Below, piece by piece: positions 37,340 through 54,772 of a DNA stretch of 64,000 nucleotides. A program made the translations under genes and the position numbers. The stretch's first letter is position 1; each line of letters opens with the position of its first letter. Below the pieces are notes generated by a model. That model made no database searches. It was not told where the DNA came from and was given only the letters and a program-made list of their open reading frames with translations. This DNA comes from Pseudomonas allokribbensis (GTDB taxonomy: Bacteria; Pseudomonadota; Gammaproteobacteria; Pseudomonadales; Pseudomonadaceae), in NCBI RefSeq assembly GCF_014863605.1, contig NZ_CP062252.1:3791001-3855000 (forward strand). The letters are read 5' to 3'.

Positions 37340-37432
37340 GAGATCGGTCTCCGATTGTTGTTTTTATGGAACCTCGGGGGACGCCTCTCGCGGAAAACCG
37401 CCAGGGCCATCCCTCCGTCGAAAACGACTATA

Positions 37433-37443
37433 TAGTAATACTA
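37433..37443. promoter_or_regulatory. predicted FCD-GntR operator 1
   Basis: TAGTAATACTA is an exact match to the FadR/FCD-family pattern TNGTNNNACNA and a perfect palindrome around one base. It lies in the 193-base divergent promoter between the MFS and dehydratase genes. The regulator at 39391 is the likely binder. Confidence 0.65.
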
Positions 37444-37507
37444 ATTACCCAACAACACTTCCAAACCGTCGATTTTGCGCTTATGTTTAGCCGAAGCTCG
37501 CAAACAA

Positions 37508-37518
37508 TAGTCTTACAA
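37508..37518. promoter_or_regulatory. predicted FCD-GntR operator 2
   Basis: TAGTCTTACAA is a second match to TNGTNNNACNA, 15 bases upstream of the dehydratase ATG, a position suited to blocking transcription. Confidence 0.6.
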
Positions 37519-37532
37519 TAAGAGAATCGATC

Positions 37533-39269: not shown

Positions 39270-39284
39270 CACCACCATGCCTCC

Positions 39285-39308
39285 TGTGGGAGCAAGCCCG
39301 CTCCCACA
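39285..39308. repeat. REP-like hairpin TGTGGGAGC
   Basis: TGTGGGAGC and GCTCCCACA pair around six bases. This is a very common intergenic element in P. fluorescens-type genomes and may end the dehydratase transcript. Confidence 0.75.
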
Positions 39309-39390
39309 TTTGCTCTGTATCTGCCTCAAGATTGTGTGGTGCCTGCTATGATGCGCGGCATCTCCATCGTTCAGGATCGCCCCGCGCCCC

Positions 39391-40110
39391 ATGGATTACC
39401 GCAAACCTTCCGACCGCAAAAGCATGCACTCGCGCATCGTCCAGGAACTGGGCATGCAGATTGTTTCCGGACGCTTTTTGCCTTGCGACAAACTGCCCGC
39501 CGAAGCCTTGCTCTGCGAGGAGTACGCGGTCAGTCGGCCGGTGTTGCGCGAAGCCACGCGGGTGTTGGTGGCCAAGGGGCTGGTGTACTCGAAACCGCGC
39601 GTCGGCACGGTGGTCAAGCCGCGCCGCGAATGGCACATGCTCGACCCGGACGTATTGCACTGGCTGATGCAAAGCAGCCCGCAAAATGAATTCTTCAATG
39701 TGCTGACCAGCGTGCGCAGCATCATCGAACCGGCAGCTGCCGCCCTCGCCGCCCAACACGCCACCGATGCCGACATCGCCGCCATCGGCGAAGCCTACCA
39801 GCGCATGGAAGCCGCGCCGACGCCGGAAGCGTTGCTGCAACCGGATCTGGATTTCCACAGCCGGATTGCCGATGCGACCCATAACGACTTGCTGGCGAAT
39901 CTGTGCAACATGCTGTCGGTGGCGATTGCCGAGGCGTTGAAGCATTCGAATCAGCGGCCGAATCTCCATGAGTTGGCGTTGCCTCGGCATAAGGCCATTT
40001 TGACGGCGATAGAGAACCGGGATGCGTTGGGGGCTCGGCATGCGACGTTGGTGCAACTGGATGATGCGCGGAGCGCTTTGAGTGTTGTGCTTGGTACTGA
40101 AATTTCTTAA
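39391..40110 (+). CDS. GntR-family regulator, FCD subfamily (sugar-acid operon)
   Basis: A 239-residue repressor-type regulator. The winged helix occupies about residues 10-75 (KLPAEALLCEEYAVSRPVLREAT), and the FCD ligand-binding domain follows with metal-site residues in PDLDFHSRIADATHNDLL. Relatives respond to galactonate, glucarate and other sugar acids. It follows the dehydratase on the same strand after a 121-base gap containing a REP-like hairpin. The two TNGTNNNACNA sites in the divergent promoter are its probable targets. Confidence 0.85.
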   Translation: MDYRKPSDRKSMHSRIVQELGMQIVSGRFLPCDKLPAEALLCEEYAVSRPVLREATRVLVAKGLVYSKPRVGTVVKPRREWHMLDPDVLHWLMQSSPQNEFFNVLTSVRSIIEPAAAALAAQHATDADIAAIGEAYQRMEAAPTPEALLQPDLDFHSRIADATHNDLLANLCNMLSVAIAEALKHSNQRPNLHELALPRHKAILTAIENRDALGARHATLVQLDDARSALSVVLGTEIS

Positions 40111-40181: not shown

Positions 40182-42566
40182 TCAGTGGGCAAACAACGAG
40201 TTCCCCTTCTGCCCCGCCAGTTTCTCCGGCTTGATCAGGAACTTGGCCAGTGCCGGCAGCAGCCACAGCGCACCGAACATGTTCCACAGCAGCATGAAGG
40301 TCAGCATCAGGCCCATGTCGGCCTGGAACTTGATCGCCGAGAAAATCCAGGTGCACACACCGATGGCCAGGCACAGACCGGTGAACAGCACCGCTTTACC
40401 GGTGGATTTCAGGGTCTGGTAATAGGCTTCCTGCAACGGCAGGCCGGCACGCAGGAAACTTTCCAGACGGCTGTAGATGTAGATGCCGTAGTCCACGCCG
40501 ATCCCCACGCCCAGCGCCACCACCGGCAACGTCGCGACCTTCACGCCGATACCCATGAACGCCATCAGCGCGTTGCCGAGTACCGAGGTCAGCACCAGCG
40601 GAAGCACGATGCACAGGGTCGCCGCCCAGGAACGGAAGGTGATCATGCACATCACCGCCACGCAGATGTACACCAGCACCAGGATGGTCAGTTCGGCCTG
40701 TTTGATGACTTCGTTGGTCGCAGCCTCGATCCCGGCGTTACCGGCCGCCAGGATGAATTCCAGACCCTCTTTGTTGTTGTCCTTGGCGAATTCCTGCACC
40801 GCATGCACCGCACGATCCAGGGTTTCAGCCTTGTGATCGTTGAGGAACACCAGCACCGGCGCCAGCGAGCAACTGTTGTTGTACAGGCCGTCGGCACGGG
40901 CGATGGAGTTGTTCAGCACGTCCGGGTTGCGCGACAGGGTTTCCCATTTCAGGTTGCCCTCGTTCATGCCCTTGATCATCTGCTTGGACACGGTCACCAA
41001 CGAGATCGCCGACTGCACGCCCTCGGTGTTCTGCATTTTCCACATCAGCTCATCGATCGGCGCCATGGCTTCGTAGCGCGAACAGCCTTCGGACTTGGTC
41101 TTGACCATCACCACCAGTACGTCGGAGCTGGTGGAATAGTTGTTGATGATGAAGTTGTTGTCCTTGTTGTAGCGCGAGTCCGGACGCAATTCCGGCGCGC
41201 CCTGGTCGAGGTCGCCGATCTTCAGGTTCTGGCTGTACCAGAGGCCGCCACCGAAAGCGATCAGAGCGAGCGCAATGGACACCGGTGCGACTTTCGGGCT
41301 GGCAAAGTTCGACAGCAGGCGCCAGAACGGGTGTTCGCGGTTGGCGTCCTTCTTGCTCTTGGCCACCGCACGCTTGCTGATGCCGACATAGGAAATCGCC
41401 ACCGGCAATAGAATCAGGTTGGTGAACACGATCACCGCCACGCCGATGGACGCGCCGATGGCCAGTTCACGGATCACGCCGATGTCGATGATCAGCAGCG
41501 TGATGAAGCCCACCGCATCCGCGAGAATCGCGATCATCCCCGGCAGGAATAGTTGCCGGAATGTGCGCCGCGCGGCGGTCAGGGCGTTGTCCGCCTCGCT
41601 CGATTGCAGGGCGATACCGTTGATCTTCTGCACGCCGTGGGAAATCCCGATGGCGAAGATCAGGAACGGCACCAGCATCGAATACGGATCGAGGCCGAAA
41701 CCGAAGAAGTGCATCAACCCCAGTTGCCAGACCACCGCCACCAGCGTGGTGCTCAACACCGCCACGGTACTGCGCAGGCAGTTGGTGAACCACAACAGCA
41801 GAATCAGGGTGATGACGAAGGCGACGCCGAAGAACATCACCACCATCACCAGACCGTCGATCAGGTCACCGACCTTCTTGGCGAAACCGACGATGTGGAT
41901 CTTGACGTTGGGGTTCTGCGCTTCGAACTTGTTGCGGATCTTGTCTTCCAGTTCATGGGAGAACTGGCGGTAGTCCAGCGCCAGCAACTTGCCCTGGTCC
42001 TGCGGGTCCGGGTAGGACTCCAGCAGCGGGATGTCGACGATGCTCGACTTGAAGTCGTTGGCCACCAGACGCCCGACCTGACCCGACTTGAGCACGTTGT
42101 TGCGCAGCATGTCGAGGCTGTCCTGGGAGCCGTCGTAGCTCTGCGGAATCACTTCACCGCCGGCAAAGCCTTCCTCGGTCACTTCGGTCCAGCGTACGCT
42201 CGGGCTCCACAGCGACTTCAGGCCGGAACGGTCGACGCCGGAGATGTAGAACACCTCGTCGTTGATCTGGCGCAGGGTCTCCATGTACTCCTTGGAGAAG
42301 ATGTCACCGTCCTTGGCTTCCACCGAAATGCGCACGGTGTTGCCCAGGTTCGTCAGATCGTTGCGGTGCTCCATCATCTTCTCGATGAACGGATGCTTGA
42401 GCGGGATCATTTTTTCGAAACTGGTGGACGGCCGGATCAGCGTGGCCTGCCAGAACAGGAAAATGCTGACCAGCAGGCAGATCACGATCACTGCCGGGCG
42501 GTTGTTGAAGATCAGGCGTTCGAGAAACGTCGCCTTGTCCTGATGATGAGTGCTCAAGGAAGTCAT
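40182..42566 (-). CDS. RND-superfamily (MMPL-like) membrane exporter
   Basis: A 794-residue protein with 12 predicted membrane helices in two repeats, each with one helix followed by a large periplasmic loop and five helices. Repeat-1 core GLVMVVMFFGVAFVITLILL and repeat-2 core VATLPVVALGVGIGVDYGIY are typical of the MMPL/HpnN-like RND branch, which moves lipids or hydrophobic compounds rather than drugs through TolC. A YCF48-like gene 28 bases upstream shares the operon. In other pseudomonads these two accompany DUF1302 and DUF1329 genes, absent here. Confidence 0.85.
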   Translation of the reverse strand: MTSLSTHHQDKATFLERLIFNNRPAVIVICLLVSIFLFWQATLIRPSTSFEKMIPLKHPFIEKMMEHRNDLTNLGNTVRISVEAKDGDIFSKEYMETLRQINDEVFYISGVDRSGLKSLWSPSVRWTEVTEEGFAGGEVIPQSYDGSQDSLDMLRNNVLKSGQVGRLVANDFKSSIVDIPLLESYPDPQDQGKLLALDYRQFSHELEDKIRNKFEAQNPNVKIHIVGFAKKVGDLIDGLVMVVMFFGVAFVITLILLLWFTNCLRSTVAVLSTTLVAVVWQLGLMHFFGFGLDPYSMLVPFLIFAIGISHGVQKINGIALQSSEADNALTAARRTFRQLFLPGMIAILADAVGFITLLIIDIGVIRELAIGASIGVAVIVFTNLILLPVAISYVGISKRAVAKSKKDANREHPFWRLLSNFASPKVAPVSIALALIAFGGGLWYSQNLKIGDLDQGAPELRPDSRYNKDNNFIINNYSTSSDVLVVMVKTKSEGCSRYEAMAPIDELMWKMQNTEGVQSAISLVTVSKQMIKGMNEGNLKWETLSRNPDVLNNSIARADGLYNNSCSLAPVLVFLNDHKAETLDRAVHAVQEFAKDNNKEGLEFILAAGNAGIEAATNEVIKQAELTILVLVYICVAVMCMITFRSWAATLCIVLPLVLTSVLGNALMAFMGIGVKVATLPVVALGVGIGVDYGIYIYSRLESFLRAGLPLQEAYYQTLKSTGKAVLFTGLCLAIGVCTWIFSAIKFQADMGLMLTFMLLWNMFGALWLLPALAKFLIKPEKLAGQKGNSLFAH

Positions 42567-42594
42567 AGCCCCGCCTTCTTATTATTGATTCGGC

Positions 42595-43623
42595 TCATTT
42601 GCCCAGCTCGGTGCCGTTGGGCGTGGTGGTGTGGACGCCACCCTGCCCGCTCAGGATCAGATTGCCATTGCCGGCGGCGGTGACCGACGACAGCGAGATG
42701 CGATCCGGGCGGTTGAACACGCTGAAGGTTTCACCGTTGTCGCTGCTGCTGATCACCGTGCCGCCGTTGCCGACGATGACGATCGAGCCGTCTTCGAGGA
42801 GCGTGGCGCCGGACAGGCCGAATTCCAGCGCACCGCGCGCCGCCTTGAGTTCGACTTGCTGCCAGGTGCTGCCGAAATCAGTGGAGCGGTAGAGGTTGCC
42901 GCGCAGCCCGTAGGCCAGCAGCGTGGAAGGCTGGGCGGTGCCGATCACACCGAACAGCGAGCCCTGATACGGGCCTTCGATTTTTTCCCAGGTCTGGCCC
43001 CAGTCGGCGGAGCGGAACATCGCGCCCTGTTCACCCACGATGAACAGCCCGGCGTCTTTCACGGCGGCGATGGCGTTGAGGTGAAACTGGTCCTGGTTGT
43101 CGAGGCGGTCGCTGACGTCTTGCCAGTTCTTGCCGCCGTCGGTGGTCTCGAGCAATGCGCCGTAGGCACCCACGGCCAAGCCGTTGTTGACGTCCTTGAA
43201 CCAGAGGTCGAGCAGCGGCGATTCGCGCTTGAGGTCTTCGAACTGTTTGGTCCAGGTCAGGCCGCCGTCTTCGCTGGCGAGGATCTGCGCGTCATGGCCG
43301 ACGGCCCAGCCGTGTTTGTCGTCGACGAAATACACGGCCGTCAGCAACTGGCGGCTTGGCACCTTGGCCTGGGTCCAGGTCTTGCCCTGGTCGTCGGAGT
43401 AGAGAATGTGCCCGCGATCACCGACCGCCACCAGCCGTGAACCGGCGTGAACGACATCGAGCATCAGGCTTTTCGGGGCCTTGGCCGATTCGATGGCGTA
43501 GACCACGTCGGCTGGCGCTTCGGCGGCCAGTACGGGCGCCGACAAGGTGGCAAAGCCCAGCAGAGAGAGTGCTGTGGCCAGCAACGCGGTGTTGCGAAAC
43601 GCCGGCGGGCGGCAACGACTCAT
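42595..43623 (-). CDS. YCF48-like BNR-repeat exported protein
   Basis: A 342-residue protein with a signal peptide (cleavage after VLAAEA, about residue 33) and a beta-propeller built of BNR/Asp-box repeats: SDDQGKTWTQAKV, SEDGGLTWTKQFE, TTDGGKNWQDVS, SADWGQTWEKIE and STDFGSTWQQVE. This resembles the YCF48/HCF136 photosystem II assembly factor fold, in bacteria found next to RND exporters. It is the first gene of the operon, with GGGAAGG before the ATG. Probably a periplasmic partner of the exporter. Confidence 0.85.
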   Translation of the reverse strand: MSRCRPPAFRNTALLATALSLLGFATLSAPVLAAEAPADVVYAIESAKAPKSLMLDVVHAGSRLVAVGDRGHILYSDDQGKTWTQAKVPSRQLLTAVYFVDDKHGWAVGHDAQILASEDGGLTWTKQFEDLKRESPLLDLWFKDVNNGLAVGAYGALLETTDGGKNWQDVSDRLDNQDQFHLNAIAAVKDAGLFIVGEQGAMFRSADWGQTWEKIEGPYQGSLFGVIGTAQPSTLLAYGLRGNLYRSTDFGSTWQQVELKAARGALEFGLSGATLLEDGSIVIVGNGGTVISSSDNGETFSVFNRPDRISLSSVTAAGNGNLILSGQGGVHTTTPNGTELGK

Positions 43624-43897
43624 AGACCTTCCCCTATTTATTATTGTTAGGCCATTCGGCCTTCAAGGGCGCCGCAAGTGTGCTCCAGCGACGGTTGGTC
43701 AGAAGCATAGTCCTGAAACCCGCAATCCAGAGCCACTTCGGAAGCTGGCTCATCCTATCGGGCATTCGAAACGTCTGACAATCGGCGCAACGTTATCTTT
43801 TGTTAACCGAAAGGGATTACAGCAGCGGCTGAATGCACGGGCATTCGTCCGACTGATGGGCGGGAATCTTGCGTGGGGGACTTGCACGATCGGTATT

Positions 43898-43909
43898 ATG
43901 GTATACCAT
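43898..43909. promoter_or_regulatory. TGGTATACCA operator upstream of the catabolic operon
   Basis: ATGGTATACCAT is a perfect 12-base palindrome 41 bases before the ATG at 43950. The core recurs at 49500 and in variant form at 50695. Sites of this form are bound by FCD-GntR proteins such as VanR; the regulator at 47841 is the natural candidate. The rest of the 43624-43949 gap shows no gene. Confidence 0.7.
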
Positions 43910-43949
43910 CAGACGCACAGACACTCTTTATCCCCCTACGGAGCAGCTC

Positions 43950-44540
43950 ATGAGTTTCGAAATTCGCAAGATCGTCAGCTATGTCGAAGAGACCTTCATT
44001 GAAGGCGGCAAGGCTTCCGACACCCCGGTGACCATGGTGGGCCTGGCCGTCGTGATGAAGAACCCGTGGGTCGGCAATGGCTTTGTCGAAGACCTCAAGC
44101 CGCAGATCCGCGCAAACTGCTCTGACCTCGGCGCGATGATGGTCGAGCGTCTGGTGGGCATCATCGGTGGCGCCGAGAAAATCGAGGCTTACGGCAAAGC
44201 GGCAGTCGTCGGTGCGGACGGCGAGATCGAACACGCCTCGGCGGTGATCCACACCCTGCGCTTTGGCAATCACTACCGCGAAGCGGTCAAGGCCAAGAGT
44301 TACCTGAGCTTCACCAACAAGCGCGGCGGTCCGGGCACCTCGATCCAGATCCCGATGATGCACAAGGACGACGAAGGCCTGCGCTCGCACTACATCACCC
44401 TGGAAATGCAGATCGAAGATGCCCCGCGCGCCGACGAAATCGTCGTGGTACTCGGTTGCGCCGACGGTGGCCGTCTGCACCCGCGCATCGGCAACCGCTA
44501 CATCGATCTGGAAGAACTGGCCGCCGAAAAAGCCCAGTAA
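43950..44540 (+). CDS. amino-acid-synthesis-family protein (DUF1185)
   Basis: A 196-residue protein of the 'amino acid synthesis' (DUF1185) family, whose reaction is not established. It begins MSFEIRKIVSYVEETFIEGG and carries family-type stretches such as TMVGLAVVMKNPWVG and AAVVGADGEIEHASAVIHT. The ATG at 43950 has GGAG six bases upstream; an open extension to 43869 would run through the operator and is rejected. First gene of an operon with hydrolase, dehydrogenase, flavin reductase and CMD genes. Confidence 0.8.
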   Translation: MSFEIRKIVSYVEETFIEGGKASDTPVTMVGLAVVMKNPWVGNGFVEDLKPQIRANCSDLGAMMVERLVGIIGGAEKIEAYGKAAVVGADGEIEHASAVIHTLRFGNHYREAVKAKSYLSFTNKRGGPGTSIQIPMMHKDDEGLRSHYITLEMQIEDAPRADEIVVVLGCADGGRLHPRIGNRYIDLEELAAEKAQ

Positions 44541-44571
44541 TCAAAACAAGAAGGCATTGCAGGAGCGCTCC

Positions 44572-45405
44572 ATGATTCGGCATACCGCTGAACTCACCCC
44601 GGCCGGCACCAGTTATCTGGCGACCGGCCAGGGCCACCCCGTGGTGTTGATCCACGGCGTGGGCCTGAACAAAGAAATGTGGGGCGGCCAGATCGTTGGC
44701 CTGGCCACGCAATATCGGGTGATCGCCTACGACATGCTCGGACACGGCGCCAGCCCGCGACCGGCCAGCGGCACCGCCCTGCTCGGTTATGCCGATCAGT
44801 TGCTGGAGTTGCTCGACCACCTGCAATTGCCGCTGGCGTCGGTGATCGGTTTTTCCATGGGCGGTCTGGTGGCGCGGGCCTTCGCCCTGCATTACCCGCA
44901 GCGCCTGAAAAGCCTGGTGGTGCTCAACAGTGTGTTCAACCGTAGCGAAGAGCAACGCGCCGGGGTCATCGCTCGCACCGCGCAAGCCGCCGAACATGGA
45001 CCGGACGCGAATGCCGAAGCGGCGCTGTCGCGCTGGTTCAGCCGCGAATACCAGGCGGCCAATCCGGCGCAGATCGCCGCGATCCGCCAGACCCTGGCCG
45101 GCAATGATCCGCAGGGCTACCTGACCACCTACGAATTGTTCGCCACCCAGGACATGTACCGCGCCGACGACCTGGCCAGCATCCAGGCGCCGACGCTGAT
45201 CGCCACCGGCGAGCTGGACCCCGGATCGACCCCGGAAATGGCCGAGCAACTGGCCGCGCGCATTCCCGGCGCGAAGGTTGCCGTGCTGCCCGAGCAACGG
45301 CATATGATGCCGGTAGAGTCGCCGCGACTGGTCAATCAGCTGCTGCTGGAATTTCTCGAAACCGCACACGCCCGACAAAACCCTATAAAGGGGATCGTTG
45401 CATGA
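44572..45405 (+). CDS. alpha/beta-hydrolase (RutD/PcaD-like)
   Basis: A 277-residue alpha/beta hydrolase. The nucleophile elbow is GFSMGG, the oxyanion region is LIHGVGLNKEMWGG, and the C-terminal histidine is in QRHMMPVESPRL. Closest in style to RutD and 3-oxoadipate enol-lactonases, which cleave small esters, lactones or carbamates. The ATG at 44572 follows AGGAG; the reading frame is open upstream but overlaps the previous gene. It overlaps the dehydrogenase gene by four bases, so they should act on one pathway. Confidence 0.85.
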   Translation: MIRHTAELTPAGTSYLATGQGHPVVLIHGVGLNKEMWGGQIVGLATQYRVIAYDMLGHGASPRPASGTALLGYADQLLELLDHLQLPLASVIGFSMGGLVARAFALHYPQRLKSLVVLNSVFNRSEEQRAGVIARTAQAAEHGPDANAEAALSRWFSREYQAANPAQIAAIRQTLAGNDPQGYLTTYELFATQDMYRADDLASIQAPTLIATGELDPGSTPEMAEQLAARIPGAKVAVLPEQRHMMPVESPRLVNQLLLEFLETAHARQNPIKGIVA

Positions 45406-46883
45406 CACTCGCACGCTTCCAGATGTGCATCGGCGGAGAATGGGTCGACGCCCTCTCCGGCAAGACCTTCGAAAGCCTCAACCCGGCGCTGGCCGAGCCC
45501 TGGGCCGAACTGCCCGATGCGGACGAGGCCGACGTAGAACGCGCCGTCCAAGCCGCGCAAACCGCCTTCGACAGCCCGGCGTGGCGTGGCCTGACCGCCA
45601 CCGCGCGCGGCAAACTGTTGCGTCGTCTCGGTGACCTGATCGCTGAAAACAAGGAAAAACTGGCGCAGCTGGAAAGCCGCGACAACGGCAAACTGATCCG
45701 CGAAACCCGGGGTCAGGTCGGTTATCTGCCGGAGTTCTTCCACTACACCGCGGGCCTTGCCGACAAGCTTGAAGGCGGCACCCTGCCGCTGGATAAGCCC
45801 GACCTGTTTGCCTACACCGTGCACGAAGCCATGGGTGTGGTCGCCGCGATCATTCCGTGGAACAGCCCGCTCTATCTGACCGCGATCAAACTGGCGCCGG
45901 CGCTGGCGGCGGGCAACACCATCGTGATCAAACCGTCCGAGCATGCCTCTGCGACCATTCTGGAACTGGCGCGCCTGGCCCTCGAAGCCGGGATTCCACC
46001 GGGCGTGGTCAACGTTGTCACCGGTTACGGCCCGAGCACCGGCGCTGCCCTCACCCGCCATCCGCTGATCCGCAAGATCGCCTTCACCGGCGGCGCAGCC
46101 ACGGCCCGGCATGTGGTGCGCAGCAGCGCCGAAAACTTCGCCAAGCTGTCGCTGGAACTGGGCGGCAAGTCACCGAACATCATCTTCGCCGACGCGGATC
46201 TGGATAGCGCGATCAACGGCGCGATTGCCGGGATTTACGCGGCGTCCGGGCAGAGTTGCGTATCCGGTTCGCGACTGCTGGTACAGGACGAAATCTACGA
46301 CGAGTTCGTCAGCCGACTGGTGGAACGCGCCCAGCGCATCCGCATCGGCAACCCGCAGGACGACAGCAGCGAAATGGGCCCGATGGCCACCGCGCAGCAA
46401 CTGGCCGTGGTGGAAGGTCTGGTGGCCGACGCCATTGCCGAAGGTGCGCGCCTGCGTCTGGGCGGCAAGCGGCCGAGCGGTGTGGGCGACGGCTGGTTCT
46501 ACGAACCGACGCTGTTCGAGTGCGACCGCAACTCGATGAAGATCATGCAGGAAGAAGTGTTCGGCCCGGTGGCCTCGGTCATCCGCTTCAAGGATGAAGC
46601 CGAAGCGCTGGCGATTGCCAACGACTCGCAGTTCGGCCTCGCCGCCGGTATCTGGACCCGCGACCTGGGCCGCGCCCATCGACTGGCCCGGGACGTGCGC
46701 TCGGGGATCATCTGGGTCAACACCTACCGCGCGGTGTCGGCGATGGCACCGATCGGCGGTTTCAAGAACAGTGGCTATGGACGCGAAAGCGGCATCGATT
46801 CGGTGCTGGCCTACACCGAACTGAAAACGGTGTGGATCAACCTCTCTCAGGCGCCGATGCCTGATCCGTTTGTGATGCGCTAG
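45402..46883 (+). CDS. NAD(P)-dependent aldehyde dehydrogenase
   Basis: A 493-residue aldehyde dehydrogenase with the standard fold. The catalytic base lies in LSLELGGKSPNI, the nucleophile Cys in ASGQSCVSGSRL, and the cofactor-binding segment is VVAAIIPWNSPL. The family name beyond this (betaine, aminobutyraldehyde, benzaldehyde) cannot be fixed by sequence; the neighbouring polyamine-type importer makes an amino-aldehyde plausible. Four-base overlap with the hydrolase. Confidence 0.88.
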   Translation: MTLARFQMCIGGEWVDALSGKTFESLNPALAEPWAELPDADEADVERAVQAAQTAFDSPAWRGLTATARGKLLRRLGDLIAENKEKLAQLESRDNGKLIRETRGQVGYLPEFFHYTAGLADKLEGGTLPLDKPDLFAYTVHEAMGVVAAIIPWNSPLYLTAIKLAPALAAGNTIVIKPSEHASATILELARLALEAGIPPGVVNVVTGYGPSTGAALTRHPLIRKIAFTGGAATARHVVRSSAENFAKLSLELGGKSPNIIFADADLDSAINGAIAGIYAASGQSCVSGSRLLVQDEIYDEFVSRLVERAQRIRIGNPQDDSSEMGPMATAQQLAVVEGLVADAIAEGARLRLGGKRPSGVGDGWFYEPTLFECDRNSMKIMQEEVFGPVASVIRFKDEAEALAIANDSQFGLAAGIWTRDLGRAHRLARDVRSGIIWVNTYRAVSAMAPIGGFKNSGYGRESGIDSVLAYTELKTVWINLSQAPMPDPFVMR

Positions 46884-46895
46884 GAGTCCTGCGAC

Positions 46896-47381
46896 ATGAT
46901 CGAACCCGGCATTTACAAAGACGTCATGAGCTCGTTTCCGTCCGGGGTCACGGTGGTCACCACCCTCGACCCGGATGGCGGCATCGTCGGCATCACCGCC
47001 AGCGCCTTCAGTGCGCTGTCGATTGACCCGGCGCTGGTGCTGTTCTGTCCCAACTACGCCTCCGACACCTACCCGGTGCTGCGCGACAGCAAGCGTTTCG
47101 CGATCCATTTGCTGTCCGCCGACCAGACCGCCGAGGCCTACGCCTTCGCCGGCAAAGGCAAGGACAAGGCCAACGGCATCGACTGGCATTTGAGCGAGCT
47201 CGGTAACCCGATCCTCGCCAAGGCCACGGCGATCATCGAGTGCGAGTTGTGGCGCGAATACGACGGTGGCGACCACGCGATCATCGTCGGCGCGGTGAAG
47301 AACCTGATCCTGCCGGCGCAACCGGTGACGCCGATGATCTATCACAAGGGCAAGCTCGGCGCCCTGCCGACACTGGGTTGA
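46896..47381 (+). CDS. flavin reductase domain protein
   Basis: A 161-residue FMN-binding split-barrel protein of the flavin reductase family (MSSFPSGVTVVTTLDPDGG, then GITASAFSALSIDPALVLFC). Such proteins supply reduced FMN or FAD to a separate monooxygenase. No oxygenase is encoded in this operon or elsewhere in the window, so its partner is either distant or the protein has another role. GGAGTCC lies upstream; it starts 12 bases after the dehydrogenase stop. Confidence 0.88.
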   Translation: MIEPGIYKDVMSSFPSGVTVVTTLDPDGGIVGITASAFSALSIDPALVLFCPNYASDTYPVLRDSKRFAIHLLSADQTAEAYAFAGKGKDKANGIDWHLSELGNPILAKATAIIECELWREYDGGDHAIIVGAVKNLILPAQPVTPMIYHKGKLGALPTLG

Positions 47382-47392
47382 GCGGAGGACAC

Positions 47393-47782
47393 ATGAGCCA
47401 CGAAAAATATGAGCAGGGCCTGAAGATCCGCACCCAGGTGCTCGGCGAAGCCTATGTGCAGCGCTCGATCGAGAACGCCGACGACTTCACCCGCCCGCTG
47501 CAGGAAATGGTCACCGAATACTGCTGGGGCCATGTCTGGGGACGCGAGGGTCTGTCGCTCAAGGAGCGCAGCATGATCAACCTGGCGATGATCTCCGCGT
47601 TGAACCGCCCGCATGAACTCAAGCTGCATGTGCGCGGCGCCTTGCGTAACGGCCTGAGTCGTGAGCAAATACGCGAAATTCTGCTTCAGGTCGGTATTTA
47701 TTGCGGCGTCCCGGCAGCCGTGGACAGTTTCCGGCTCGCCCGTGAAGCCTTCGCCGAAGCCGACGCCGAGGCCTCCAGTTAA
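47393..47782 (+). CDS. carboxymuconolactone-decarboxylase-family protein (PcaC-like)
   Basis: A 129-residue CMD-family protein. Unlike the AhpD-like protein at 4864 it lacks the CxxC pair and has the PcaC-type core (GREGLSLKERSMINLAMISA, then GALRNGLSREQIREILLQ). These proteins decarboxylate or isomerise ring-cleavage lactones, consistent with the PcaD-like hydrolase in the same operon. AGCGGAGG precedes the ATG at 47393. Confidence 0.85.
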   Translation: MSHEKYEQGLKIRTQVLGEAYVQRSIENADDFTRPLQEMVTEYCWGHVWGREGLSLKERSMINLAMISALNRPHELKLHVRGALRNGLSREQIREILLQVGIYCGVPAAVDSFRLAREAFAEADAEASS

Positions 47783-47840
47783 CCCCTCGGCTGTTTGAAT
47801 GCCCGTCTGGCATGGACAGCCACACTAAAGAGCGGACCCC

Positions 47841-48605
47841 ATGAAACGCCTGCCACTCGACGACAGCTTCAAGGTCAATCGCAACCCCGTCACCCTGCGC
47901 GAAATCGTGCTGGATAAACTGCGAAGCGCCATCATGAACTTCCAGCTGCTGCCGGGCGATCGCCTGGTGGAGCGCGATCTGTGCGATCGCCTGGGTGTCA
48001 GCCGTACGTCGGTGCGTGAAGCCTTGCGTCACCTGGAATCCGAGGGCCTGGTGGAGTTCGCCGACGCCAAGGGCCCGCGTGTGGCAATCATCACCCTCGC
48101 CGATGCGGTCGACATCTATGAGCTGCGCTGCGTGCTCGAAGGCCTGATCGTCCAGCTGTTCACCCTGCGCGCCAAGGCCAAGGACATCAAGGCCCTGGAA
48201 AAAGCCCTCGACGAGAACCGCAAGGCGCTCAAGGACGGCGAACTGCAACAGGTAATCGACTCGGTGCAGGGTTTCTACGACGTGCTGCTGGAAGGCTCCG
48301 GCAACCATGTCGCGGCCACTCAGCTGCGCCAGTTGCAGGCACGCATCAGCTATCTGCGGGCGACGTCGGTGTCCCAGGAAAACCGTCGCGGCGCGAGTAA
48401 CCAGGAAATGGAAAAAATGGTCGAGGCGATCAAGAGCGGCGATCCGCTGGCGGCGCATCAGGCGTGCGTCGATCACGTTCGCGCGGCCGCTGCGGTGGCC
48501 CTCGATTATCTCAAGCGCAAACAGGAAGAAACCGGCACCGTACTCAAAGGCACGCCGCCGATCACCCTGCCCATCCCGCTGAAAGAACCGCGCATAGGTC
48601 ACTGA
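47841..48605 (+). CDS. GntR-family regulator, FCD subfamily (catabolic regulon)
   Basis: A 254-residue regulator with a winged helix at about residues 15-80 (LVERDLCDRLGVSRTSVREA) and an all-helical FCD domain. It sits inside the gene cluster whose transcription units are preceded by TGGTATACCA palindromes, the expected site type for this family, so it is probably the pathway-specific repressor. No such site lies directly before it. It is followed after one base by the Nudix gene. Confidence 0.85.
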   Translation: MKRLPLDDSFKVNRNPVTLREIVLDKLRSAIMNFQLLPGDRLVERDLCDRLGVSRTSVREALRHLESEGLVEFADAKGPRVAIITLADAVDIYELRCVLEGLIVQLFTLRAKAKDIKALEKALDENRKALKDGELQQVIDSVQGFYDVLLEGSGNHVAATQLRQLQARISYLRATSVSQENRRGASNQEMEKMVEAIKSGDPLAAHQACVDHVRAAAAVALDYLKRKQEETGTVLKGTPPITLPIPLKEPRIGH

Positions 48606-48606
48606 C

Positions 48607-49170
48607 ATGTTCAGCCCGAGCTTTTGCCCGAAATGCGGTGGCGCTGACCTCGGTCAGCAAGTGCCGCCGGGCGATACGCACGAGCGCCTGATGTGCCGGG
48701 GCTGCGGCTACATCCACTATGTGAACCCGAAGATCATCGCCGGCTGCATCATCGAGCAGGACGGCAAATACCTCTTGTGCCAACGGGCGATCCCCCCGCG
48801 CGCCGGCACCTGGACTTTGCCCGCCGGTTTCATGGAAAGCGGCGAAACCACCGAACAGGCCGCCCTGCGCGAAGTCTGGGAAGAAAGCGGCGTACGCGCG
48901 GAAATCGTCTCGCCGTACTCGATCTTCAGCGTGCCGAAAATCAGCGAGGTCTACATCATCTTCCGCGCCCTCGCGCTGGAGATCACCGGCCAGTACGGCC
49001 CGGAAACCCTCGACTACAAATTCTTCGCCCCCGAAGACATTCCGTGGGACCAGATCTACTACCCGGCGATCCGGCAGATCCTCGAACGCTACATCGAGGA
49101 ACGCCAGGCCGGGGTCTATGGCATGTACATGGGCAATGACGACAGCGGCAAGATTCATTTCATGCGTTGA
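48607..49170 (+). CDS. Nudix hydrolase with N-terminal zinc ribbon
   Basis: A 187-residue Nudix pyrophosphohydrolase. A zinc ribbon (CPKC at 7-10, CRGC at 30-33) precedes the Nudix box at residues 74-96 with catalytic REVWEESG. Ribbon-bearing Nudix enzymes of this size include NADH and FAD pyrophosphatases; given the flavin reductase and RibB genes nearby, FAD to FMN plus AMP is an attractive but unproved reaction. It is coupled to the GntR gene. Confidence 0.85.
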   Translation: MFSPSFCPKCGGADLGQQVPPGDTHERLMCRGCGYIHYVNPKIIAGCIIEQDGKYLLCQRAIPPRAGTWTLPAGFMESGETTEQAALREVWEESGVRAEIVSPYSIFSVPKISEVYIIFRALALEITGQYGPETLDYKFFAPEDIPWDQIYYPAIRQILERYIEERQAGVYGMYMGNDDSGKIHFMR

Positions 49171-49179
49171 TCGTGCTGC

Positions 49180-49473
49180 TTACGGCGCCATTCCTTCTAC
49201 GATGATGATTTCCGCCTTCGCCCATTCCTCGCGATAACCTTTCGCTTCCTGATACGCCGCCGAGCGATAGCACGCCACCGCCTGCTCGTAGCTGTCGAAC
49301 TCGATCACCACGCTGCGCTGAGGCGTCGTCCGCCCTTCCATCGCTTCGCTGCGCCCGCCTCTGGCTAAAAACTTCGCGCCGAACTCGGCGAACGCTTTTG
49401 GCGCGCGCTCGGTGTATTGGCTGTAGTGATCGGGATCGGTGATGTCCACGTGTGCAATCCAGTACGCCTTCAT
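49180..49473 (-). CDS. DUF1330 protein
   Basis: A 97-residue dimeric alpha/beta-barrel-type protein of the DUF1330 family (MKAYWIAHVDITDPDHYSQY, then a GRTTPQRSVVIEFDSYEQA-type segment). It is encoded on the minus strand within the plus-strand cluster, and its 5' end lies 26 bases from the TGGTATACCA site at 49500. That operator may therefore control both this gene and the RibB gene divergently. Catalytic role unknown. Confidence 0.82.
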   Translation of the reverse strand: MKAYWIAHVDITDPDHYSQYTERAPKAFAEFGAKFLARGGRSEAMEGRTTPQRSVVIEFDSYEQAVACYRSAAYQEAKGYREEWAKAEIIIVEGMAP

Positions 49474-49499
49474 AGTGACCTCTCAGTTGAATTTGTATT

Positions 49500-49511
49500 A
49501 TGGTATACCAC
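49500..49511. promoter_or_regulatory. TGGTATACCA operator between DUF1330 and RibB genes
   Basis: ATGGTATACCAC matches 11 of 12 bases of the site at 43898. It lies in the 65-base divergent region, overlapping where the leftward and rightward promoters must be. A spurious ATG within it opens a longer frame into the RibB gene. Confidence 0.7.
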
Positions 49512-49538
49512 GAATTTCATCCACATCGAGAGTCCAGC

Positions 49539-50648
49539 ATGGCCTTCAACAGCATCGAAGAAATCATCGAAGATTATCGCCTCGGCAAAATGGTGTTGCT
49601 GGTCGATGACGAAGACCGGGAAAACGAAGGCGACCTGCTGCTGGCCGCCGACCGTTGCACGCCCGCGGCGATCAGTTTCATGGCCCGTGAGGCTCGGGGG
49701 CTGATCTGCCTGACGTTGACTGACGATCATTGCCAGCGCCTGGGGCTGGAGCAAATGGTGCCGAGCAATGGCAGCGTGTTCAGTACCGCGTTCACGGTTT
49801 CCATCGAAGCGGCGGTCGGCGTGACCACCGGCATTTCCGCTGCTGACCGCGCCTGCACGGTTGCTGCTGCGGTGGCGCCCAATGCTCGCGCAGAAGACCT
49901 GGTGCAGCCCGGCCATATCTTTCCGTTGCGCGCCAAGGAAGGTGGCGTGCTGACCCGTGCCGGTCACACCGAGGCCGGTTGTGATCTGGCGCGGCTGGCG
50001 GGTTTCACACCTGCTTCGGTGATCGTCGAAGTGATGAACGACGACGGCACCATGGCCCGCCGCCCGGATCTGGAAGTCTTTGCGCGCAAGCACGGGATCA
50101 AGATCGGCACCATCGCCGATCTGATCCACTATCGCCTGAGCACCGAACACACCATCGAGCGCATCGGCGAGCGGGAGTTGCCGACGGTGCATGGCACCTT
50201 CCGTTTGATCACTTTCGAAGATCGCATCGAGGGTGGTGTGCACATGGCGATGGTCATGGGCGAATTGCGTCGCGAAGAACCGACGCTGGTGCGCGTGCAT
50301 GTGATCGATCCGCTACGGGATCTGGTCGGCGCCGAGTACAGCGGGCCGACGAACTGGACGCTATGGGCAGCGCTGCAGCGGGTCGCGGCCGAAGGGCATG
50401 GCGTGGTCGTGGTGCTGGCCAATCATGAGTCGTCGCAGGCGTTGCTGGAGCGGGTGCCTCAGCTGACTCAACCGCCACGGCAGTTCAGTCGTTCGCAATC
50501 GCGGATCTATTCCGAGGTAGGAACCGGGGCGCAGATTCTGCAGAACCTGGGCGTCGGCAAGCTGCGTCACCTGGGCCCGCCGCTCAAATACGCCGGTTTG
50601 ACCGGCTACGATCTTGAGGTGGTCGAGAGTATTCCGTTCACCGAATAA
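49539..50648 (+). CDS. ribB: 3,4-dihydroxy-2-butanone-4-phosphate synthase with degenerate GTP-cyclohydrolase-II domain
   Basis: A 369-residue RibBA-like protein. The N-terminal DHBP synthase domain is intact ([11 protein letters not shown] at 23-33; [15 protein letters not shown] further on) and makes the four-carbon unit of riboflavin from ribulose 5-phosphate. The C-terminal half has the GTP-cyclohydrolase-II fold but lacks the three zinc cysteines, so that activity is lost, as in several Pseudomonas RibB proteins. The ATG at 49539 gives the canonical [10 protein letters not shown] start. Probably an extra, pathway-controlled ribB copy raising flavin supply. Confidence 0.88.
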
Positions 50649-50694
50649 CCCCGTTTGCCAGATAGCCGGTAAGGCAAAGTGCTTGCACAATGTT

Positions 50695-50719
50695 TGGAAT
50701 ACCATAATATGATATTCCA
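50695..50719. promoter_or_regulatory. double variant TGGTATACCA operator before the importer genes
   Basis: TGGAATACCA (50695-50704) and TGATATTCCA (50710-50719) differ from TGGTATACCA by one and two bases. Together they form a 25-base near-palindrome about 95 bases before the binding-protein ATG. Confidence 0.6.
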
Positions 50720-50814: not shown

Positions 50815-51840
50815 ATGGTGTTGAACAAAGCTGCAACCGCGATCTTTCTTGCGGGACTGCTGAGCGTGACCGGTCAGGCCGCGATGGCCGCCGAGAGTGT
50901 GAACTTTGTCAGCTGGGGCGGTAGCACCCAGGATGCGCAGAAACAGGCCTGGGCCGATCCATTCAGCAAGGCCAGCGGCATCACCGTTGTGCAGGACGGC
51001 CCGACCGACTACGGCAAACTCAAAGCCATGGTCGAAAGCGGCAACGTGCAATGGGACGTCGTTGATGTCGAAGCCGACTTTGCCTTGCGTGCCGCGTCCG
51101 AAGGACTGCTCGAACCCCTCGATTTCAAACAGATCCAGCGCGACAAGATCGACCCGCGTTTCGTCAGCGACTACGGCGTCGGTTCGTTCTTCTTCTCCTT
51201 CGTCCTCGGCTACAACGAGGGCAAACTCGGCGCCAGCAAACCGCAGGACTGGAGCGCGCTGTTCGACACCAAGACCTTCCCCGGCAAACGCGCCCTGTAC
51301 AAATGGCCGAGTCCCGGCGTGCTTGAACTGGCGTTGCTCGCCGACGGCGTTCCAGCAGACAAGCTCTACCCGCTGGACCTCGATCGCGCGTTCAAGAAAC
51401 TCGACACCATCAAGAAAGACATCGTCTGGTGGGGCGGCGGCGCGCAGTCGCAGCAACTGCTGGCCTCCGGTGAAGCGAGCATGGGGCAGTTCTGGAACGG
51501 CCGGATTCACGCCCTGCAAGAAGACGGCGCACCGGTCGGCGTGAGCTGGAAGCAAAACCTGGTCATGGCCGACATTCTGGTGGTGCCAAAGGGCTCGAAA
51601 AACAAGGACGCGGCGATGAAGTTCCTGGCCAGCGCCAGCAGTGCCAAGGGCCAGGCCGACTTCTCCAACCTGACCGCCTACGCCCCGGTCAACGTCGACA
51701 GCGTGGCGCGTCTGGACTCGACGCTGGCCCCGAACCTGCCGACTGCCTACGCTAAGGATCAGATCACTCTTGATTTCGCGTACTGGGCCAAGAACGGCCA
51801 GGCCATCGCGACACGGTGGAACGAATGGCTGGTCAAATGA
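50815..51840 (+). CDS. ABC transporter substrate-binding protein, PotD-like
   Basis: A 341-residue periplasmic binding protein for a spermidine/putrescine-type importer. Signal peptide cleaved after AMA at about residue 25. The start of the mature protein (ESVNFVSWGGSTQDAQKQAW) and the YGVGSFFFSFVLGYNEGKLG segment are typical of the PotD/POPT cluster, which binds polyamines and other cationic or opine-like molecules. GAGGG lies eight bases before the ATG. It overlaps the first permease by four bases. Confidence 0.88.
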   Translation: MVLNKAATAIFLAGLLSVTGQAAMAAESVNFVSWGGSTQDAQKQAWADPFSKASGITVVQDGPTDYGKLKAMVESGNVQWDVVDVEADFALRAASEGLLEPLDFKQIQRDKIDPRFVSDYGVGSFFFSFVLGYNEGKLGASKPQDWSALFDTKTFPGKRALYKWPSPGVLELALLADGVPADKLYPLDLDRAFKKLDTIKKDIVWWGGGAQSQQLLASGEASMGQFWNGRIHALQEDGAPVGVSWKQNLVMADILVVPKGSKNKDAAMKFLASASSAKGQADFSNLTAYAPVNVDSVARLDSTLAPNLPTAYAKDQITLDFAYWAKNGQAIATRWNEWLVK

Positions 51841-52784
51841 AAATGGCGGCCACCGCGTCCCGTCCCTCCACTGCCGCCGGGAGCGCCGCCAGCGCTGCCG
51901 GGTCGGCCGCCGGAAAAAAGGCCAGTGCCATGGCGCCAGCCCCGTCCCTCAAGCAACGCTGGCGCGGCGCCGGCAACCTCGCGCCGGCGCTGCTGTTCCT
52001 CGGCCTGTTCTTTCTTGCGCCGTTGATTGGCTTGTTGCTGCGCGGCGTGCTGGAACCGGTGCCGGGCCTTGGCAACTATGAACAACTGTTCGCCAACTCG
52101 GCTTATGCCAGGGTGCTGTTCAACACCTTTTCGGTGGCCGGACTGGTGACCGTGTTCAGCCTGCTGCTGGGTTTTCCGCTGGCCTGGGCAATCACCCTGG
52201 TGCCACGGGGCTGGGGCCGCTGGATTCTCAACATCGTGCTGCTGTCGATGTGGACCAGCCTCCTCGCCCGCACCTATTCGTGGCTGGTGCTGTTGCAGGC
52301 TTCGGGCGTCATCAATAAAGCGTTGATGGCCGTGGGCATCATCGATCAGCCACTGGAAATGGTGCACAACCTGACCGGCGTGGTGATCGGCATGAGCTAC
52401 ATCATGATCCCGTTCATCGTGCTGCCATTGCAGGCGACCATGCAGGCGATCGACCCGATGATTCTGCAGGCCGGTTCGATCTGTGGCGCCAGCCCGTGGA
52501 CCAACTTCTTCCGGGTGTTCCTGCCGCTGTGCCGGCCGGGGCTGGCGTCCGGCGGGTTGATGGTGTTCGTGATGTCGCTCGGTTACTACGTCACCCCGGC
52601 GCTGCTGGGCGGGGCGCAGAACATGATGCTGCCGGAGTTCATCATTCAGCAGGTGCAGTCGTTCCTCAACTGGGGTCTGGCCAGCGCCGGCGCCGCGTTG
52701 CTGATCGTCATCACCCTGGTGCTGTTCTACTTCTACCTGAAGCTCCAGCCGGAATCCCCGGTTGGCGCCAGTAACGCGAGGTAA
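51837..52784 (+). CDS. ABC transporter permease, PotB-like
   Basis: A 315-residue inner-membrane permease with six hydrophobic segments. The EAA-type loop is QAGSICGASPWTNFFRVFLP. An unusual Ala/Ser/Lys-rich N-terminal extension of about 40 residues precedes the first membrane segment. The ATG at 51837 overlaps the binding-protein stop; ATG 51843 is an alternative. Works with the next gene as a heterodimeric channel. Confidence 0.87.
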   Translation: MKMAATASRPSTAAGSAASAAGSAAGKKASAMAPAPSLKQRWRGAGNLAPALLFLGLFFLAPLIGLLLRGVLEPVPGLGNYEQLFANSAYARVLFNTFSVAGLVTVFSLLLGFPLAWAITLVPRGWGRWILNIVLLSMWTSLLARTYSWLVLLQASGVINKALMAVGIIDQPLEMVHNLTGVVIGMSYIMIPFIVLPLQATMQAIDPMILQAGSICGASPWTNFFRVFLPLCRPGLASGGLMVFVMSLGYYVTPALLGGAQNMMLPEFIIQQVQSFLNWGLASAGAALLIVITLVLFYFYLKLQPESPVGASNAR

Positions 52785-52790
52785 GCCGAC

Positions 52791-53600
52791 ATGCTCCTGA
52801 CTCCCAATGCCATGAGCCGCCGGATGCGCTTCGGCCTGTACGCCACCACCGGGCTGATCGCGCTGTTTCTGCTGCTGCCGATCGTCTTCATTGTCCTGCT
52901 GTCGTTCGGCTCGTCCCAATGGCTGGTGTTCCCGCCGCCGGGCTGGACGCTGAAATGGTATGGCCAGTTTTTCTCGAATGCGGACTGGATGAGCGCAGCA
53001 CTGGCCAGCCTCAAGGTTGCGGTACTGACCATGATCTGCGCCGTCGCCCTCGGTTTGCCGACTGCCTTTGCGCTGGTTCGCGGGCGCTTTCCCGGTCGGG
53101 AAATGCTCTACGGCCTGTTCACCCTGCCGATGATTGTGCCGCTGGTGATCATCGCCGTGGCGGTGTACGCGCTGTTCCTCAAGCTCGGTTATACCGGGAC
53201 GATGTTCGCCTTCGTCGTCAGCCATGTGATCGTCGCGCTGCCGTTCACCATCATCTCGATCATCAACTCGCTGAAGCTGTTCGATCAGTCGATTGAGGAC
53301 GCGGCAGTGATCTGCGGTGCGTCACGCTTGCAAGCGGTGCTCAAGGTGACCTTTCCGGCGATTCGTCCGGGGATGGTGGCCGGCGCCCTCTTCGCCTTTC
53401 TGGTTTCGTGGGACGAAGTGGTGCTCAGCGTGATGATGGCCAGCCCGACCCTGCAAACCCTTCCCGTGAAAATGTGGACCACCCTGCGCCAGGACCTGAC
53501 GCCCGTAATCGCCGTCGCCTCGACGTTGCTGATCGGCCTGTCGGTGTTGGTCATGGTGATCGCCGCCGCCCTGCGCCGGCGCAACGAAATCAGCGCCTGA
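52791..53600 (+). CDS. ABC transporter permease, PotC-like
   Basis: A 269-residue permease with six membrane segments. The EAA loop is DAAVICGASRLQAVLKVTFP, and the first helix lies in LIALFLLLPIVFIVLLSF. It starts six bases after the first permease; an internal ATG seven codons downstream (MSRRMRFGL) could also initiate. It belongs to the PotABCD-type importer at 50815-54772. Confidence 0.88.
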   Translation: MLLTPNAMSRRMRFGLYATTGLIALFLLLPIVFIVLLSFGSSQWLVFPPPGWTLKWYGQFFSNADWMSAALASLKVAVLTMICAVALGLPTAFALVRGRFPGREMLYGLFTLPMIVPLVIIAVAVYALFLKLGYTGTMFAFVVSHVIVALPFTIISIINSLKLFDQSIEDAAVICGASRLQAVLKVTFPAIRPGMVAGALFAFLVSWDEVVLSVMMASPTLQTLPVKMWTTLRQDLTPVIAVASTLLIGLSVLVMVIAAALRRRNEISA

Positions 53601-53617
53601 GCGCCCAGGAGTACGAC

Positions 53618-54772
53618 ATGAGTGCCGTGATCAAAGACGCATCCCAGCAGAACGACAAACCCCTGGTCAGCCTGCGCAACCTGAACAAGCACTACGGCGA
53701 ATTCGCGGCCGTGGACAACATCTCGCTGGACATCAAGGACGGCGAATTCCTGACCTTCCTCGGCTCCAGCGGCTCGGGCAAAAGCACCACGCTGTCGATG
53801 CTCGCCGGCTTCGAAACCCCGAGCAGCGGCGAGATCCTGGTCAACGGCCAGTCGCTGGTCAACGTGCCGCCGCACAAGCGCGACATCGGCATGGTGTTCC
53901 AGCGTTATTCGCTGTTCCCGCATCTGTCAGTGCGCGACAACATCGCGTTCCCGCTGGCGATCCGCAAACTCGCGGCTGCCGAACGCGACAAACGTGTCGA
54001 TGCGATGCTGAAACTGGTGCAGCTCGAGCAATTCGCCCATCGCCGCCCTTCGCAACTGTCCGGCGGCCAGCAGCAACGGGTCGCCATCGCTCGCGCTCTG
54101 GTCTATGAGCCACGCATTCTGTTGATGGACGAACCTCTTGGTGCGCTGGACAAGAAACTGCGTGAAGACTTGCAGGATGAATTGCGCCAGTTGCACCGTC
54201 GTCTCGGCATCACCATCGTCTACGTGACCCACGATCAGGAAGAAGCCATGCGCCTGTCACAGCGCATCGCGATTTTCAGTCACGGCAAGATTGTCGGGCT
54301 CGGCAGCGGTTATGACCTGTACCAGAATCCGCCGAATGCGTTTGTGGCGTCGTTCCTTGGCAACTCGAACTTCCTCAAGCTCAAGGCTCAGGGCAACGGG
54401 GCGGCGAGTTTTGAAGGTCAGTCACTGTCGATTCGCCTCACCGCTGGATTGCAGACCGGGCAGGATGTGCTGCTGATGGTGCGCCCGGAAAAGGCTTTGG
54501 CGTTGAGTGTGCAGCAAGCGGCGAGTGAGCCGTTGGTAGCTGGCTGGAATGAGGTGTCGGCGAAGGTGGTTGAAGTGCTGTTTCTGGGTGAGAGCCAGAC
54601 GTGCAGTGTGGTCACGCCGGGTGGCACGTCCATGACCGTGAAAGCATTGTCGGCGGCTGGGATGCCGTTGAAGGCCGGGGATCCGGTGCAGGTGCGTTGG
54701 GCGACAGCAGATGCATGCGTCTACACCGAGTGGGCCAAGAGCGATCTGAACAAAGCCGCAGGCGCACACTGA
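53618..54772 (+). CDS. ABC transporter ATP-binding protein, PotA-like
   Basis: A 384-residue ATPase. Walker A is GSSGSGKST (49-57), the Q-loop is GMVFQRYSLFPH, the signature is LSGGQQQRVAIARAL, Walker B is ILLMDEPLGALD and the switch His is in YVTHDQEEAM. The C-terminal TOBE domain follows, as in PotA/FbpC transporters. The ATG at 53618 follows CAGGAG. It completes the importer and is closed by a hairpin. Confidence 0.92.
   Translation: MSAVIKDASQQNDKPLVSLRNLNKHYGEFAAVDNISLDIKDGEFLTFLGSSGSGKSTTLSMLAGFETPSSGEILVNGQSLVNVPPHKRDIGMVFQRYSLFPHLSVRDNIAFPLAIRKLAAAERDKRVDAMLKLVQLEQFAHRRPSQLSGGQQQRVAIARALVYEPRILLMDEPLGALDKKLREDLQDELRQLHRRLGITIVYVTHDQEEAMRLSQRIAIFSHGKIVGLGSGYDLYQNPPNAFVASFLGNSNFLKLKAQGNGAASFEGQSLSIRLTAGLQTGQDVLLMVRPEKALALSVQQAASEPLVAGWNEVSAKVVEVLFLGESQTCSVVTPGGTSMTVKALSAAGMPLKAGDPVQVRWATADACVYTEWAKSDLNKAAGAH

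Follow-up and report, generated by a model that had tools for sequence, protein, structure and literature searches.

A conserved palindrome as the predicted operator of an FCD-type GntR regulator in a probable trigonelline-type catabolic regulon of Pseudomonas allokribbensis

Trigonelline (N-methylnicotinate) occurs widely as an osmolyte in plants and in the sea and is catabolised by Sinorhizobium meliloti, and a trigonelline degradation (tgn) cluster of Acinetobacter baylyi ADP1 has reportedly been described by Perchat et al. in 2018. An aldehyde dehydrogenase and a hydrolase also belong to the tgn pathway. The ring is opened by TgnA/TgnB (PMC8269262), and in ADP1 the oxidation of succinate semialdehyde is stimulated by TgnF, a protein of the DUF1185 type (PMC7913881). 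For GntR regulators of the FadR subfamily, PMC4494728 gives sites with TKGT and ACMA boxes, with 2 nucleotides between GT and AC in the case of UxuR. The present analysis concerns a 64-kb stretch (positions 3791001-3855000, referred to as the window) of the 6,565,027-base genome of Pseudomonas allokribbensis, in which a palindrome recurs in front of several transcription units surrounding a gene for an FCD-type GntR regulator.

The palindrome is the predicted operator of this regulator, and a pathway-specific regulon is supported by co-occurrence of site and regulator, by promoter conservation and by the same site beside related GntR and catabolic genes elsewhere, in line with what an earlier note on this DNA had proposed without naming the pathway. 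The most probable arrangement is a TgnR-like FCD-GntR repressor with five operators in a regulon for catabolism of the trigonelline type. Palindromes at 43898, 49500 and 50695-50719, which the earlier note had placed before a catabolic operon, a DUF1330/RibB pair and an ATP-binding cassette (ABC) importer, were all found at these positions, and the gene identities were confirmed by Pfam, as was the regulator in the middle of the cluster. The operators and genes of the window cluster are the following.

43894-43913, plus strand: operator 1, TATTATGGTATACCATCAGA, before the catabolic operon; conserved TTGCAC hexamer upstream at 43882-43887
43950-44540, plus strand: AA_synth protein (DUF1185, PF06684), family of TgnF (Pfam)
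44572-45405, plus strand: alpha/beta hydrolase, TgnD-like (Pfam; name of one homologue)
45402-46883, plus strand: aldehyde dehydrogenase, TgnC-like by family and neighbourhood (Pfam)
46896-47381, plus strand: flavin reductase, first of the two of the regulon (Pfam)
47393-47782, plus strand: carboxymuconolactone decarboxylase (CMD) family protein (Pfam)
47841-48605, plus strand: FCD-type GntR regulator, proposed TgnR-like repressor (Pfam FCD and GntR; co-occurrence with the site)
48607-49170, plus strand: NUDIX hydrolase with zinc ribbon (Pfam; BLASTP)
49180-49473, minus strand: DUF1330 protein, divergent from RibBA (Pfam)
49496-49515, plus strand: operator 2, TATTATGGTATACCACGAAT, between DUF1330 and RibBA
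49539-50648, plus strand: RibB-RibA fusion (RibBA), flavin precursor synthesis (Pfam, NCBIfam)
50695-50719, minus strand: operator 3, double site reading TGGAATACCATAATATGATATTCCA on the plus strand; its minus strand gives TATTATGGTATTCCA at 50695-50709
50815-51840, plus strand: ABC importer, substrate-binding protein (Pfam)
51816-52784, plus strand: ABC importer, permease 1 (Pfam)
52791-53600, plus strand: ABC importer, permease 2 (Pfam)
53615-54772, plus strand: ABC importer, ATPase (Pfam)

Two exact copies of the 10-mer TGGTATACCA were found in the genome, both within the cluster, 5.6 kb apart and in promoter regions. The short matches were ATGGTATACCAT at 43898-43909, ATGGTATACCAC at 49500-49511 and, for operator 3, TGGAATACCA at 50695-50704 plus TGATATTCCA at 50710-50719. 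Within two mismatches, TGGTATACCA occurred 20 times in the window, against a mean of 7.27 in 100 shuffles of the window (standard deviation 2.49, largest value 17). Genome-wide enrichment of the bare 10-mer was rejected as evidence, since there was no excess over composition or over a reversed-pattern motif, which was used as a control in the genome and its relatives: two exact copies compared with about 3.2 expected by composition and two for the reversed control, and 32 places within one mismatch compared with 45. The 10-bp operator of the earlier note proved to be a real site, but the conserved element is longer, comprising TATTAYGGTATWCCA within a palindrome of about 20 bp; TATTATGGTATWCCA is common to both exact sites and to the minus strand of operator 3. 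Five genome sites, all in the regulon, matched TATTATGGTATACCA within one mismatch, where about 0.1 were expected. With exactly two mismatches the single genome match was operator 1 read on the opposite strand, and up to three mismatches gave 18 matches compared with 7 for the reversed control, mostly background. Thirty places in the genome carried the 10-mer with one mismatch, three of them in the regulon; eight others (in seven stretches, L026-L032) lacked the TATTA/TAATA extension, and none of the remaining 19 came within three mismatches of the 15-mer. The non-random features are the promoter placement in one cluster and the longer common motif, not the frequency of the 10-mer.

The search for further promoter sites proposed in the earlier note yielded two, at G000:3862054-3862068 and 3862227-3862241, 7 kb past the window end (stretch L025), which brings the total to five. 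Both fall between a gene for an NCS1-family permease and a flavin reductase/luciferase-like monooxygenase pair.

L025 5563-6975, minus strand: NCS1-family permease (Pfam)
L025 7295-7780: second flavin reductase (PF01613; Pfam)
L025 7848-8891: luciferase-like monooxygenase (PF00296; Pfam), after the second flavin reductase

The window cluster contains a flavin reductase and lacks an oxygenase dependent on flavin mononucleotide (FMN), which is provided by the outside unit. In four relatives (L044, L049, L050 and L052) the permease/reductase/oxygenase unit, with both sites, adjoins the AA_synth operon.

Conservation was examined in 57 relatives and in a second draw of 149 genomes of the genus, of which 36 were in common with the first draw and 113 were new. 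In stretches from 20 relatives (L033-L052; the short L024 shows none of the genes concerned), the exact core was present before AA_synth in all 20 and between DUF1330 and RibBA in all 13 in which this region was in view, and TGGAATACCATAATA preceded the binding protein of the importer in 12 of 12, excluding a second, 63% identical binding protein without the site in L051. A wide promoter set was drawn from 118 stretches (the window, L025, L033-L052, L053-L132, L150, L151 and L157-L170), taking genes with 60% identity or more whose alignment began no later than residue 4, distinct 150-bp upstream regions, and sites with at most one mismatch within 250 bp. The site was found in all distinct upstream regions of AA_synth (26), DUF1330 (29), RibBA (31) and the binding protein (37, one site being different) and in 78 of the 79 of the NCS1 permease.

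The regulator scored 62.2 bits with PF00392 (GntR helix-turn-helix, N-terminal) and 88.5 bits with PF07729 (FCD, C-terminal), both above the cut-off. Two of the three histidine positions of TM0439 (3sxy), which presumably have a role in metal binding, are Tyr and Met in this protein, and it may bind its effector without a need for metal. In the 57 relatives the regulator orthologue, the oxygenase and TATTAYGGTATWCCA were each found in 22, and these were the identical 22 genomes. Among the 149 genus genomes, in which orthologues were called at E <= 1e-80, the site was present in 85/85 with the regulator and in 1/64 without it (63/63 and 1/50 in the 113 new genomes). The reversed control pattern gave one match in the 57 genomes and none in the 149. 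In the exception, G464, the operators are intact and the gene for the regulator is broken up over two reading frames (L168 5211-5956), which may reflect a genuine loss or a fault in the assembly.

The same site could also be observed in distant bacteria. In L145-L148 it adjoins a gene for a GntR protein of 37-42% identity and AA_synth as the first gene.

Acinetobacter junii: tattaTGGTATACCAtaaga, beside GntR and AA_synth
Leisingera: tatgaTGGTATACCAtatta, beside GntR and AA_synth
Mesorhizobium: tagcaTGGTATACCAtaaga, beside GntR and AA_synth
Sinorhizobium meliloti pSymA: tatgaTGGCATACCAtaaga, one mismatch, beside GntR and AA_synth

Next to the pSymA cluster of S. meliloti, the gene for the regulator (L145 5426-6295) is missing from the annotation listed, and towards its C-terminal end the product no longer follows the alignment, which looks like the effect of a frameshift. 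In other genera of the order, eight genomes had the oxygenase at E <= 1e-60, and the site lay within one mismatch near the genes in all seven examined (L150-L156; G315 being the eighth). It was absent at two of six plasmid loci, those of Arthrobacter, where the GntR is 31% identical, and of R. phaseoli, where no GntR match was found. Among the loci examined the site thus follows this type of regulator, and the predicted operator is conserved together with the regulator across bacterial classes. The same 20-letter site before every unit, and its recurrence beside a related regulator and related genes in distant bacteria, make it very likely that the units of this gene set are turned on together. 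No account of this operator was found among the papers listed, judged mainly by titles, and it may have been published before.

When promoters were aligned on the operator, 24 AA_synth promoters kept TATTATGGTATACCATCAGA and 37 could be aligned for operator 3. A TTGCAC/TTGCAA hexamer was conserved upstream in three of four aligned groups (AA_synth, binding protein and second reductase) and was not conserved in the RibBA group (9 aligned). By reading, TACCAT in enzyme promoters or TAATAT in transporter promoters follows 16 bases past the hexamer, which is TTGTGA for the NCS1 permease. A promoter scan supported the hexamer pair for the second reductase and listed it for the NCS1 permease, where it was not alone on top. 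With this spacing the operator would cover the spacer and the -10 region, and from this we infer steric repression. Without inducer, the regulator would occupy the palindrome of about 20 bp over the spacer and -10 region and exclude RNA polymerase; trigonelline or an early ring-cleavage product would release it. The five operators would then activate six transcription units, namely the catabolic operon including the regulator gene itself, DUF1330, RibBA, the ABC importer, the NCS1 permease and the reductase/monooxygenase pair.

The gene set probably breaks down trigonelline. AA_synth, hydrolase, reductase, oxygenase, aldehyde dehydrogenase and a related ABC importer are all encoded on pSymA of S. 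meliloti and in Mesorhizobium, a set that matches the core of the regulon described here; in Mesorhizobium the reductase and hydrolase are one gene. The aldehyde dehydrogenase at 45402 is 51-56% identical to the oxygenase-adjacent aldehyde dehydrogenases of L145-L148, and a CMD family gene is also present in L147, L149, L155 and L156. A luciferase-like oxygenase and a flavin reductase of the TgnB/TgnA type, recognised by family only, stand behind the same site, and the DUF1185 helper family of TgnF is present by Pfam. Among the 120 listed of 1789 oxygenase homologues, four (P0046, P0055, P0082 and P0117; 76-83% identity) are named 'flavin-dependent trigonelline monooxygenase, oxygenase component', and one (P0170, 87%) of the 120 listed of 642 hydrolase homologues bears the TgnD name (E)-2-((N-methylformamido)methylene)succinate hydrolase. 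In the proposed order of steps, the two-component FMN oxygenase would open the pyridinium ring, the aldehyde dehydrogenase would oxidise the ring-opening product, the alpha/beta hydrolase would then split the product, and the DUF1185 protein would assist succinate-semialdehyde oxidation. RibBA, and perhaps also the NUDIX protein, would supply flavin. A second aldehyde dehydrogenase is found in some relatives (L153, L154, L164 and L170), lying between the flavin reductase and the CMD gene at L170 6593-8101 and at about 1969 in L164; in these two it is perhaps the succinate-semialdehyde dehydrogenase that is otherwise missing.

The genome has three copies of RibBA, of which that of the regulon shares 57% and 47% identity with the other two, and the cluster of Arthrobacter includes genes for a riboflavin kinase and a NUDIX protein. 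The NUDIX protein at 48607, whose Nudix box is intact by reading of the sequence, matched, in a seven-sequence BLASTP set, the C-terminal parts of flavin reductases (L149 5456-6448, E 3e-18; L145 8066-9004, 3e-10; L146 8078-9004, 5e-10; L147 9039-9998, 5e-9) and of the fused protein of L148 (E 6e-7), in which the box is degenerate by reading. The Arthrobacter reductase gave no such NUDIX match (E 3.9), and Pfam did not score the C-terminal parts of the L145, L146 and L147 reductases as NUDIX. As this stand-alone protein is homologous to reductase C-termini in rhizobia, Leisingera and Acinetobacter, the Nudix fold may have been recruited. A built-in flavin supply, in which the RibBA copy, two flavin reductases and the NUDIX protein would be induced with the FMN oxygenase and the Nudix fold perhaps feeds or holds flavin for ring cleavage, is a tentative suggestion that we hold to be somewhat doubtful.

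Two neighbouring regions of the window were also inspected. Just upstream of the cluster, 40182-43623 on the minus strand encodes, by reading, an RND-type membrane protein and a YCF48-like protein, a pair found at the same place in six of the 20 relatives (L033-L038). Further away, a separate-looking catabolic unit at 36017-40110 has no matching palindrome.

36017-37339, minus strand: MFS transporter (name by reading), part of this unit
37533-39269: dehydratase-like gene (name by reading), part of this unit
39391-40110: second FCD-GntR regulator (Pfam)

A number of observations weigh against a trigonelline-type regulon under a TgnR-like repressor. In the wide set the site was found in 83 of 104 upstream regions of the second reductase and in 49 of 94 of the oxygenase; these counts are lower probably because the first reductase was also caught and the oxygenase often lies inside an operon, for which there was no row-by-row check. 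The second reductase of L042 has no site of its own. The upstream hexamers share only 3-4 of their 6 bases with TTGACA; at its threshold the promoter scan gave no pair for AA_synth, different pairs ranked first for RibBA and the binding protein of the importer, and different pairs were also given for DUF1330. The Arthrobacter locus has an oxygenase of 78% identity, its GntR reaches only 31% and the site is missing there; R. phaseoli (L149) has neither a GntR match nor the site. Co-occurrence alone cannot prove binding, because the site is inherited along with the genes; what strengthens the argument is that the units are sometimes dispersed, as in G003, G007, G009, G015 and G029, where they are far apart or on other contigs and each has kept its site. 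As to the substrate, the trigonelline names are automatic and rare, other named oxygenase homologues being LLM class, SsuD-like or alkanal monooxygenases and other named hydrolase homologues pimeloyl-ACP methyl ester carboxylesterase or 3-oxoadipate enol-lactonase. Neither cluster showed a separate gene for a succinate-semialdehyde dehydrogenase of the TgnE type. In a tree, the oxygenases of Pseudomonas and Actinobacteria stand apart, with support of 100/100, from six sequences of Acinetobacter, rhizobia, Leisingera and others that form a clade of their own, to which they are 44-51% identical, and with a separate clade the substrate could differ.

This last point also favours a real regulon that uses the same kind of FMN oxygenase for a different N-heterocycle, such as another N-methylpyridinium carboxylate or a nucleobase-like compound imported by the NCS1 permease. 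The best profile of this permease is the CytX hydroxymethylpyrimidine model, at 87.4 bits against a cut-off of 309.85, most named homologues are generic, and to our knowledge the CMD, DUF1330 and NUDIX proteins have no assigned place in the published pathway. However, the importer, permease, DUF1185 protein, hydrolase, aldehyde dehydrogenase and operator are common to both oxygenase clades (substrate-binding proteins of 61-69% identity beside pathway genes in L145, L148 and L156; NCS1 permease 56% in A. junii), and those specific database names that exist indicate trigonelline, so that another substrate is an unlikely explanation, if one to be taken seriously. We give much less credence to binding of the palindrome by another regulator, either the second FCD-GntR or an unlinked one. 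TKGT/ACMA sites are common to many FadR-subfamily regulators (PMC4494728), but in the search for regulator genes, which covered the 47841 protein, 85 of the 86 genomes with the site among the 149 had its orthologue intact and the remaining genome had it split, the site stands beside relatives of this protein in other classes, and no match within two mismatches was found between 35611 and 41782, the stretch holding the unit of the second regulator. That the palindromes arose by chance over AT-rich -10 regions can practically be dismissed: the frequency of the bare 10-mer would agree with it, but the longer motif, its placement, promoter conservation and co-occurrence contradict it.

Since the operator can be read from sequence, it would allow trigonelline-type regulons to be located in full, with dispersed parts such as an oxygenase outside the main cluster, and it links DUF1330, CMD, NUDIX and a spare RibBA to one pathway. 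It may also offer a natural inducible switch for soil pseudomonads. The Rut pyrimidine pathway uses a luciferase-like oxygenase, a flavin reductase, an alpha/beta hydrolase and a nucleobase-type permease, and the same four kinds of protein are present in the regulon described here. It was rejected on profile scores (RutD 90.3 of 238.5 bits; RutF 64.2 and 69.4 of 254.75 bits), and no RutA model was among the best 25 of 30 matches of the oxygenase. The PcaC/PcaD branch of protocatechuate catabolism was likewise rejected, with PcaD at 168.9 of 255.85 bits and PcaC (TIGR02425, for the CMD protein) at 154.7 of 155.7, just below the cut-off. Like the FadR-subfamily and UxuR-type regulators described in PMC4494728, the regulator combines helix-turn-helix and FCD domains, and TGGT-AT-ACCA of the operator fits TKGT/ACMA with 2-nucleotide spacing; unlike that form, the operator extends towards TATTATGGTATACCATAATA. 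With the tgn cluster of ADP1 (PMC7913881, PMC8269262) the regulon has in common a two-component flavin oxygenase and a DUF1185 helper. It differs in that no separate succinate-semialdehyde dehydrogenase was seen in its clusters, in having five operators divided between two loci that lie about 20 kb from each other, in combining an ABC importer with an NCS1 permease, and in possessing a second flavin reductase, CMD, NUDIX and DUF1330 proteins and its own copy of RibBA.

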